From NCBI RefSeq assembly GCF_000004075.3, contig NC_026657.2:11036001-11100000 (forward strand): a stretch of DNA of 64,000 bases, in the 5' to 3' direction. Positions 26,723 through 35,100 of this stretch are shown piece after piece. The position numbers and the translations under genes were made by a program. Each line of letters begins with the position of its first letter. The stretch's first letter is position 1. The notes beneath the pieces are model-generated. The model was not told the DNA's origin, did no database searches, and saw only the letters and a list, made by a program, of their open reading frames with translations. Source of the stretch: Cucumis sativus. Its lineage: Eukaryota; Streptophyta; Magnoliopsida; Cucurbitales; Cucurbitaceae.

Positions 26723-27700
26723 CTGTATATCTTCAATACTGTTTAGCTAAATTTTGTTATAATGAAAATTTATAGAAGGTCTCGCAGGCATAAATCAATA
26801 ACAATTGGAAAAGAAATGACTTTAGGAGTTTGAGCCATCTTTTACTATGTTAAATCAATGACAAGCCCAAAACTATATATCATCTGGTTGACAAATCAAT
26901 AGTTTAATGAAAAAAGTGACTCTTTCACATCAATTGAGTTTTAAAAAATGAGAAAAAATTTAAGATTCTATTTTGTTTTTTTTCTAGAATTAAGCTTATA
27001 ATTCTCTCAATTTTTTACAACAAGATTTGTATATTAAAATGAAAGCGTTATAACCAAATTTCAGAAAACAAAAATAAGCTTTTGAGAAACTGAGGTGAAT
27101 GGATTGTTTAATTGCAAGCTTAAAGAAAAAGTAAACTTAGTAGTTCGTGTGTTTTGTTTTGTGATGAGAAATGATAGTAAACTAGTAGTAATTGGGTATT
27201 GTTAATGTTAAATGTTTTTAGTGAAAAAAGAGAAAGTAGAAGGGAATGAAGTAGGAAGAGGTGAAATGAAGAAGCCTCAAAAGGTTAGAAAAAGCAAATA
27301 CAGAGGGATCAGGCAGCGTCCATGGGGAAAATGGGCCGCCGAGATTCGAGACCCACGAAAGGGCCTACGTGTTTGGCTTGGCACCTACAACACTCCTGAA
27401 GAAGCTGCTCGAGCCTATGATCAAGCCGCCATAAGAATCAGAGGTAAAAAGGCCAAACTCAACTTCCCGCCCCCACTCCCATCACCACCATTGTTATCAG
27501 TACCGTTATCTCTACCACCCTCACCGCCACAACAACAGCTCCCGACCACCTCCACCCCCATTGATGTCGAACTCAAACACCAAATCTCAACCTTGGAATC
27601 ATTCCTCGGTCTCGACCCCTCGCCACCAGTCGAACCCACAGCAGACCTTTGGTGGGTTGATGACCTTCTCGCATGTCAACAACAAAACCTCCAACTCTAA
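26300..27700 (+). CDS. Group VII ERF transcription factor with MCGGAI N-degron
   Basis: Two exons, 26300-26498 and 27222-27700, coding 225 residues. The N-terminus [10 protein letters not shown] is the signature of group VII ERFs (RAP2.12/RAP2.2/HRE type). In that family Met removal exposes Cys 2, which plant cysteine oxidases oxidise so the N-degron pathway destroys the protein in air; hypoxia stabilises it to activate anaerobic genes. The AP2 domain (about 92-149) is complete, with [20 protein letters not shown] and the [16 protein letters not shown] helix. Basic residues ([10 protein letters not shown]) precede it as a likely nuclear signal. The C-terminus has LESFLGLD and an acidic-aromatic DLWWVDDLL, plausibly an activation motif. 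The 723-bp intron falls after the N-terminal domain, as I recall for this group, and holds a (GT)13 repeat. The short length suggests an HRE2-like member, but the exact ortholog is uncertain. Confidence 0.93.
26697..26722. repeat. (GT)13 microsatellite in ERF intron
   Basis: Thirteen uninterrupted GT units inside the single intron of the group VII ERF gene; likely polymorphic. Confidence 0.9.
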
Positions 27701-31865: not shown

Positions 31866-31876
31866 ATCCCACATCG
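31866..31876 (+). promoter_or_regulatory. USE element (snRNA promoter)
   Basis: ATCCCACATCG matches the plant snRNA upstream sequence element consensus RTCCCACATCG at all 11 positions. It sits 33 bp upstream of TATAAATA (31910-31917). Known plant promoters use about 33-34 bp for RNA polymerase II snRNA genes and about 23-24 bp for polymerase III ones, so this spacing predicts polymerase II. Confidence 0.85.
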
Positions 31877-31909
31877 GAAAGCAGAATGGAAGAAAGGTGA
31901 AAGGAGAAG

Positions 31910-31917
31910 TATAAATA
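31910..31917 (+). promoter_or_regulatory. TATA box of the snRNA-like gene
   Basis: TATAAATA, 33 bp after the USE. Transcription would be expected to start about 30 bp further, near 31940. Confidence 0.8.
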
Positions 31918-31939
31918 GCAAGTAATAGAGGGAGGTTAA

Positions 31940-32123
31940 GAGTAACCCGACCTGTCAGGGGGTGAAAGGCGACTTGTCAATGATCGTATAGAGACGACGA
32001 GTCGTGCCGACACCTACCAATACGAACACACGGTACTCGTGCGCGAGCGAGCACCCACCCTACTTTCGGTGGGGGCTTGCCCGTCAATTTTTGGAAGCCC
32101 CTGACTTTCTCGGTCGGGGCTTT
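31940..32123 (+). ncRNA. Candidate Sm-class small nuclear RNA, identity not established
   Basis: A GC-rich island of about 184 bp in AT-rich DNA, placed exactly behind a USE/TATA pair with polymerase II spacing. It reads like an snRNA. A 5' hairpin is at 31945-31963 (ACCC/GGGT with inner CCT/AGG). A 9-bp stem pairs 31970-31978 with 31996-32004, including one G-U pair. A stem CCCACC/GGTGGG (32054-32059 with 32068-32073) has a CTACTTT loop. An Sm site AATTTTTGG lies at 32086-32094, followed immediately by a 3' terminal hairpin 32095-32122 (AAGCCCC/GGGGCTT, with GAC/GTC above a one-base bulge). I do not see the hallmark words of U1, U2, U4, U5 or U12. It could be a divergent minor-spliceosome RNA such as plant U11, a lineage-specific snRNA or a pseudogene. 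The start and end are estimates. Confidence 0.6.
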
Positions 32124-35100
32124 ATTAATTATCCTCATTTTTTAATCCTTTTACTATTTTCTTCCGACTCCACCCTTCCGTGTCGTCTTTTTTATTCTAT
32201 TGATTCTCTTAAAATGGAACCAGTAAACTTAAAATCTTACGAATTAAACTTTATTAAATTATCGTAATTATGCATAGGGATATTTAAACAAACCCAATAG
32301 AACGAATTTTAAAATAACAGATATTTTAATATTTGTAAATTGTTTGAGTTTAATTTGATTGGTTTAAAAAATCTTCCTAACCTAAACCCAATTTATTTAT
32401 ACTCTCATTTATTAATAATGTATTAACTTGAATGGTTATGAAATAAATAACTCTTATGTTTTATGACAAATTGTATTTAACTATTCTTTTATAATTGAAT
32501 ATATGGAATTTTATTTTTAAAAAATGATGTTTTGTTTTCTTTAAAAAAAAATTCGAATAGTATAATATCATAGATATTATCTTGTTTATTTTAATTTAAC
32601 AACAAACTCAATTTTAACTTTTGAAAATTATTTTTAAAAATATTTATTGCATTTTTTAAAACCAAATTGAATTTCAAAACAAACAAAAAAAATAGTTTTT
32701 AAAAATCCGATTTTGTTTTTAAATTAAATTGTAGAGAGTTCAAATAAGTAAAAATCAATTTTAAAATTCAGATTTTTGATACGGTCAAATAGATTTTTAT
32801 TGATTCAATATCGGATGATGTTAGTTTCATTATACTGAAAAATAGAAATCCATAAAACATTAAATAATGAAAAAAATAAATCCATGAAACATTAAATAAT
32901 GAAAAAAAGAAATCCATGAAACATTCAAATAAACAACCTAACGTTATTACTTCTTTAAATTTTGATTCATCCACTAAACTTCGATATAATATTAACGACT
33001 TATAAAAAAATCTTTATTTTTAAGTATTATTAGTTAAACCTCAATTAACTTTTTTTTTTAAATGCAATTACCACGTAATATTAGTGATTAATTCAATTAA
33101 CTGTGAAATTATTAATCTACTTTATGTTTCAAAATTTGAATGTAGTTAAGGATAACTCTACAATTAAATATACTTGATCTTAAATAATGATGGGAAGGTA
33201 GATGGTTTGTTGAGAATTTTTCTTTAAAAAAAGAAAAAGAAAAAGAAAAAAGCAACATCTAAACTATTCTTATTTGTAACAATACCCTTAATAAATTTAT
33301 ATTTGGAGTTAAAAGACACAAAAATAAAAATTTAGAAAGCTATTGAGTGAGTAGTCAACATCAAATATCTAACAAAGTTGTATTGTATTAGTTTGAATAC
33401 AATAATACAGTGATGAATTTTGGGAAATGGACAAATTTTGCAATCCAATTCCCCACTCTCTCCAACGAATTAAAAGCATTTTATAATCTGCATTCAAATC
33501 CAATCTCCCTTCAATTGCTCCAAAACAATAATAATTGAATTCACATCAAAATTATTACTCCATTATTAAAATTTAAAACCTCCTCCCCACCTATATATAT
33601 ATATACCAATGGGATTTGTGTTATCAATTTGAATTTAAATTCACCTCCCTCCCTCCTACCAGACTTGAATTTGTAACAAATGGTGTGATATATTAAAATT
33701 GAAACATAAAGTCTCCAAAGGAAATGAGTTGCACACAATTATTCAGCAATCAATACTTTCAACTCACTGTGGACCCTAAATTTCTTCTAAAACACATCTT
33801 TGGACATTGTTCTTTTCTTTAACAAATAAAAATATTAGACATTGTTTTGTTGGTTTCTTTCAATTTCACCATCTCTTCTCCCTCTTTTCACCTTCTTATT
33901 TCAATTGCCTATTATTGTTTGTGGGTCATCATATCATATCATAATATGAATATATATTCACTTTTCTTTTCCTTCACCTCTTCTTCTTCTTTTTGGGTTT
34001 TAATTAGTTGCTACCTAATCAATTTATTGCTACCCTTTATATTATACTATGCTCTACCTACACTCACTTATTCTATATTTTTCATATCATTTCTCTTTCT
34101 TCCATCAACCTCTAATACTATTTCATCTATCTATTCTATGTCGTCCCATCCATTTAGATTCAGATTGAGCTTCCTCCTATCCAAACTAACAATTTTATTG
34201 GGTTTCATTATGTTGTGAAAGATAGTGATTGACTTATAAATAAGCAGTCTCTCAACTTCATTTCAATTTATAAGAGTTGTGTTAGACTTTTTTCAAATAT
34301 CTAAGATTTAAGTAGTTCCGAGTAGTTGTTCTACCGAAATTAGTCGTTGTATCCTATTGAGACGCTTGTTGTGATATAATTTTAGTTTCTGCAAAGTAGA
34401 TAATTGATTCTAGAATAACATTTTATAAACGTTCGTATCTTAATTGTCAATTAAATCTCTACAAGATATTCGAGTTTTTCTTTTGTTATTTTAGTTTATA
34501 GACTTGGCTATCTCATCTCACTATTTTTTGAAATTCTTGTTGTATAACATATTACATTGTAATTGTTGCATGAAATGGTCAATAATTTGCTTGTGTTATT
34601 TCATTATTGTTTCCTACAAATCTTAAATTAAAAATTCATAGATACTATCTTTCGATATTAAAATTTTAAATCTCAAACTATTGGGTGAAAAGTTTAATAT
34701 AAGCTTCTTAAACAATAATATTTTGCATCCTCCCTATTTCCCTTCACCAATAGATGTGACCATACTTGTGAATTATTTCAGATGCAGACCTATTTTGTTA
34801 GAGCACAATGTTATGAATCACACTGTGGGGGTGGTATATACATGATAACAATCATTTATTGTTGCTCTTAATTATCTCTTCTTTGAACAAGAATACCGAG
34901 CAAGAGCTCACATGTGTTTGGATAGTTGCATATTTCATCTTTTTTGTTTTGTATGTTTGGTAAAATTTGATTATCCATTTGGCTACAAACTCAAAAAAAG
35001 AAAGTGTATTTCACACAATTGGAGAATCAAAAGTCTCATGTGTTTTGTGGAAGGTGGAAATGTTTAGTCCAAATGTAAAGAGAATTTTGGTATGGCCAAA

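Follow-up and report, generated by a model that had tools for sequence, protein, structure and literature searches.

A strongly diverged locus of the cucumber genome that very probably encodes the minor-spliceosomal snRNA U4atac

INTRODUCTION

Among plants, U4atac has been described in Arabidopsis thaliana (At4g16065, with At4g16060 and At4g16070 as its neighbors), where it was found in 2004 through its pairing with U6atac, the same logic as that followed here; that report gives a single-copy gene preceded by an upstream sequence element (USE) and a TATA box, with a listed length of 159 bp and a stem II word derived by the authors from U6atac (PMC545797). The human gene, RNU4ATAC, yields an RNA of 131 nt, and the Sm-site variants, numbered n.116-124, place its end 7 nt past the site; the same paper describes the binding roles of 15.5K, PRPF31, and the Sm ring (PMC7337319). 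No cucurbit U4atac gene was named in the titles or abstract openings covered by a partial literature search.

Here, we analyzed a window of 64,000 nucleotides of Cucumis sativus (contig NC_026657.2, positions 11,036,001 to 11,100,000), in which an initial annotation had placed an Sm-class snRNA-like gene (Table 1). Like the single-copy Arabidopsis U4atac, this locus, the only copy found, has a USE and a TATA box, predicted stems I and II to U6atac, and an Sm site. It measures 155 bp to the end of its Rfam match versus the 159 bp listed, and its stem II word, compared by eye with the deduced Arabidopsis one, is one base shorter and differs in both partners of two pairs. The order of stem II, kink-turn 5' stem-loop, stem I, 3' stem-loop, and Sm site is that of the human RNA, but the latter stops 7 nt past the Sm site, which in the locus RNA is followed by a strong predicted hairpin. 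With the human letters, stem III is possible too, the mismatches of human stem II fall at positions that are paired here (by eye), and the human 5' end, AACC, is the same as at the predicted start of this gene. The locus also resembles the U4 genes of its own genome (L011-L014) in the 33-bp promoter gap and in having GGAAG and then a hairpin behind the Sm site.

Table 1. Features of the locus, in positions of the window
Feature	Position	Strand	Basis or remark
USE, plant snRNA upstream sequence element ATCCCACATCG	31866..31876	+	11/11 letters
TATA box TATAAATA	31910..31917	+	33 bp past USE, Pol II-type spacing
Predicted transcription start	31944	+	inferred: TATA start + 34 bp
Stem II strand	31946..31962	+	predicted pairing with U6atac, in which one G is bulged
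5' stem-loop	31969..32005	+	Rfam alignment, fold
Kink-turn letters AATGA and GA	31979..31983 and 31993..31994	+	in 5' stem-loop
Stem I strand TGCCGAC	32005..32011	+	predicted pairing with U6atac GTTGGCA
Stem III strand CGAACAC	32023..32029	+	predicted pairing with U6atac nt 1-7 GTGTTCG
3' stem-loop	32043..32084	+	fold, Rfam alignment
Sm site AATTTTTGG	32086..32094	+	letters, Rfam alignment
Terminal hairpin past Sm site	32095..32122	+	predicted fold, complementary to the RNA's 5' end

RESULTS AND DISCUSSION

The USE of plant snRNA genes has the 11-letter consensus RTCCCACATCG, and a USE-TATA spacing of about 33 bp marks those transcribed by Pol II. In the Arabidopsis report, the consensus is printed one C shorter, as RTCCACATCG (PMC545797). 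Both promoter elements claimed in the initial annotation are present to the letter, and the gap between them is exactly 33 bp. When up to one mismatch to RTCCCACATCG was allowed, the only match in the window was the USE of the locus; given that shuffled sequences searched with the same looseness had 0.51 matches on average and at least one in 40 of 100 cases, the 11-mer alone is weak evidence. For its combination with the TATA box, chance is excluded: TCCCACATCG-N(20-36)-TATAAA occurs at 34 places in the 226.6-Mb genome, with a gap of 32 to 35 in 32 of them, and the reversed pattern occurs nowhere. Apart from the locus itself, 29 of 33 places have a U1, U2, U4, U5, or U12 match within 200 bp downstream (48 of the 66 listed snRNA matches were compared), one stands before a plant SRP RNA, one stands before a C/D snoRNA, and two are without assignment.

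The control loci fit the 33-bp Pol II spacing rule. All 30 informative Sm-class controls (12 U1, 12 U5, 4 U4, U11, and U12) had their best TATA-like word at a gap of 32 to 35, albeit with 4/6 letters only in two U5 loci, while in four U6 loci and one U6atac locus, the gap was 24 to 31. All 12 U2 loci, whose Rfam matches mostly begin inside the gene, were excluded from the promoter and 3'-box counts.

A C/D snoRNA (snoZ279/R105/R108; L077, 1348-1453, minus strand) lies directly 3' of a USE-TATA pair with a 33-bp gap, that is, with the Pol II spacing of an snRNA promoter. Around position 1501 of loci L087 (C5:1436245) and L089 (C5:19728026), there are pairs with gaps of 32 and 25, respectively, and no Rfam match at gathering score within the fetched locus; they may be small RNA genes that have escaped annotation, or else chance occurrences.

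The genome has matches elsewhere to U6atac (100.7 bits), U12 (90.4 bits), and U11 (76.6 bits), and a U4atac gene was therefore to be expected. U12 and U11 have one match each, with USE-like words of 10/11 and 9/11 letters and a TATA box at a 33-bp gap. U6atac gave 25 matches at E values of up to 10, 12 of them above the cut-off, and of the 8 that were examined, L003 alone has a USE with a TATA-like word behind it. Judging from these sequences, there is apparently at least one working copy of U6atac, next to one match each for U11, U12, and U4atac.

At Rfam's own thresholds, there was no match in the window. With permissive filters, the covariance scan that the initial annotation had proposed aligned positions 1 to 132 of the U4atac model (RF00618) with 31945-32098 at 33 bits (E value of 6.7e-4 over 601 bases), which was the sole Rfam match below an E value of 0.01 at the locus. 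This is 20 bits lower than the gathering score of the family (53), so a default scan reports nothing. Genome-wide, no other U4atac match came up at E values of up to 10 when 48 of 12176 first-look candidates were scored, and a DNA search for second gene copies returned one match, the locus itself; "only copy" is nevertheless to be understood as a search result, short of proof. Since the genome-wide E value is 0.059, not significant by itself and not convincing alone, the identity rests decisively on the pairing with U6atac.

We used as the partner the U6atac locus with the highest score (L003, 100.7 bits), which has its own 10/11 USE and TATA-like word. Cofolding predicted stems II, I, and III in one duplex around the 5' stem-loop, with 17 consecutive U4atac nucleotides paired in stem II and one bulged G in U6atac. 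The ddG value for U4atac nt 1-90 with U6atac nt 1-80 was -20.8 kcal/mol, which none of 500 shuffles equaled (mean of -4.8, best of -14.6). Against the major U6, the value dropped to -3.3, whereas the U4 of the same genome behaved in reverse, binding its own U6 (-16.8) and hardly U6atac (-1.7). The number of intermolecular pairs (39) was reached by 3 of the 500 shuffles and is less telling than ddG.

Stems I and III keep their pairing via compensatory changes relative to the Rfam or human letters. In stem I, TGCTAAC/GTTAGCA in Rfam is TGCCGAC/GTTGGCA here, so that one A-U pair has become G-C through changes in both strands, and one U-A pair has become U-G. In stem III, ACAACAC (human U4atac letters) with GTGTTGT (U6atac consensus) is replaced by CGAACAC/GTGTTCG, so that two of seven pairs differ on both sides and all seven are still paired. 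Because 62 of 5,000 shuffles of the 32-nt region form seven consecutive pairs with U6atac nt 1-13 by chance, stem III rests on these double changes and on prior knowledge; Jakab et al. in 1997 reportedly proposed a stem III for U4/U6 and an equivalent one for U4atac/U6atac.

We conclude, with a probability of about 0.95, that the locus from 31944 to about 32098-32122 encodes U4atac, an snRNA of the minor (U12-type) spliceosome. It would be a member of a known RNA family, strongly diverged from the Rfam model. What stands of the initial annotation is an Sm-class snRNA gene, probably functional, behind a plant snRNA promoter of the Pol II type. Its labels "unassigned," U11, or lineage-specific give way to U4atac, one of the families it had named for checking, in view of the Rfam match and the U6atac pairing.

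The locus is very unlikely to be a decayed pseudogene of a U4atac whose working gene was overlooked by the search or is absent from the assembly. The low Rfam score (33 bits), a weak 3' box (4/7), and a one-base insertion in the kink-turn all point in that direction, but the promoter, the Sm site, and all three predicted U6atac helices are intact, compensatory changes are not expected from decay, and the 48 of 12176 first-look candidates scored contained no other U4atac match. Less probable still is the divergent U11 suggested in the initial annotation: the Sm site with a hairpin behind it and the Pol II snRNA promoter would suit it, as they do Sm snRNAs in common, but the U11 model (RF00548) found no match at the locus at E values of up to 10, and the reading is refuted by the U11 gene with its own USE and TATA box at C2:10518408 together with the pairing of the locus with U6atac. 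A lineage-specific Sm-class RNA with a chance resemblance to U4atac, compatible with the score under the Rfam gathering value, is equally negligible; for practical purposes, the pairing in stems I, II, and III refutes it, and the complementarity to U6atac and not U6 and the full-length co-linear model match also speak against it.

As U4atac, the gene would be driven by its USE and TATA box at Pol II spacing, and its RNA would form stems II, I, and III with its own U6atac around the 5' stem-loop. By analogy with the family, this duplex would keep U6atac inactive, the 5' stem-loop would be bound by a 15.5K homologue and PRPF31, the Sm ring would bind the Sm site behind the 3' stem-loop, and U4atac would be ejected from U6atac upon activation of the spliceosome on U12-type introns. 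The locus provides a plant U4atac that is invisible at the Rfam default cut-off, along with its matching U6atac, adds compensatory changes in support of stem III, and fills the U4atac place in the minor-spliceosome RNA set of this genome. The lesson, from a single case, is to seek plant U4atac by U6atac pairing besides score.

The predicted fold of the island (31944-32124) has an energy of -75.2 kcal/mol, better than that of all 200 dinucleotide shuffles (z of -4.0), and the GC-rich stretch with four hairpins described in the initial annotation is there, as are its Sm site and the hairpin that follows. The 5' stem-loop has a 10-bp stem with the AATGA...GA letters of the U4atac family (AAUGA/GA) and, relative to Rfam, an extra C at 31995, after the GA of the kink-turn. 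Further on come, in U4atac order, the 3' stem-loop and the Sm site. The terminal hairpin (-15.5 kcal/mol) may be part of either the mature RNA or the precursor alone. Plant snRNA genes end with a 3' box, CA(N)3-10AGTNNAA, of which the best word at the locus has 4/7 letters only. Among the 30 informative controls, 29 have 5 to 7 letters and one is as low as 4/7, a value also found in one excluded U2 locus. The end signal is therefore missing or unusual, and the 3' end is given as a range, about 32098-32122.

When U4atac was folded alone, its 5' end paired preferentially with the terminal hairpin, the closed fold (-75.2 kcal/mol) being 11.2 better than that with the first 19 nt free (-64.0). The duplex between the 5' end and the tail (-30.0) was reached by none of 3,000 hairpin-preserving shuffles and by 2 of 1,000 dinucleotide shuffles. 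In U11 (L019, 1501-1632), the 3' hairpin likewise forms a duplex with its own 5' end (-25.2 kcal/mol), equaled by 1 of 3,000 hairpin shuffles and 0 of 1,000 dinucleotide shuffles. Such complementarity was testable in 16 of the 43 Sm-class loci (9 U1, 4 U4, U12, U11, and U4atac), the others having no usable tail (12 U5, 12 U2, and 3 U1), and stood out in two, U4atac and U11. It was ordinary in U12 (1912 of 3,000 shuffles) and, unlike at our locus, did not exceed chance in U4 (470 and 849 of 3,000 at two loci).

The 5' strand is predicted to pair more strongly with U6atac stem II (-35.5) than with its own tail (-30.0). Cofolding with U6atac still gave the canonical duplex, at a cost of 1.6 kcal/mol from the tail (ddG of the longer RNAs of -15.9 with the tail versus -17.5). 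These predictions suggest a closed form of U4atac before U6atac binding; the prediction comes from a single sequence, and the tests of this form were selected once the fold had been seen. That the stem II strand is occupied by the terminal hairpin until U6atac displaces it, and that U4atac and U11 share a self-closing precursor, strikes us as improbable; if true, the precursor form would be common to two of the three Sm-class snRNAs of the minor spliceosome. There would be a loose parallel in human pre-snRNAs, where, according to one report, compact alternative folds around the Sm site are opened before Sm assembly along a pathway called conserved in Metazoa, plants not being covered there (PMC10584915). 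The terminal hairpin was also considered as a copy of U6atac, but their similarity is within chance (196 of 3,000 hairpin shuffles score as well), and for this reason, only the complementarity to its own 5' end was retained.

Other genes of interest lie near the locus or belong to the same RNA families. A near-identical copy of U6atac (L004, 1501-1628; C5:24172840-24172967) has a best USE word of 6/11 and no TATA box and is flanked on both sides by TTTGGTTGTCT (by eye), which suggests retroposition with duplication of the target site. A U4 gene (L014, C3:11013705-11013855, minus strand, 109.7 bits, USE of 11/11) is located ca. 54 kb from U4atac on the same contig. Four of the 20 open reading frames listed for 20000-44000 of the window were compared with Pfam: two had no Pfam domain, one had TPR matches below the Pfam cut-offs, and the frame at 27212-27700 (plus strand) had an AP2/ERF domain (Pfam AP2, E value of 4.2e-16) and is likely a transcription factor gene.
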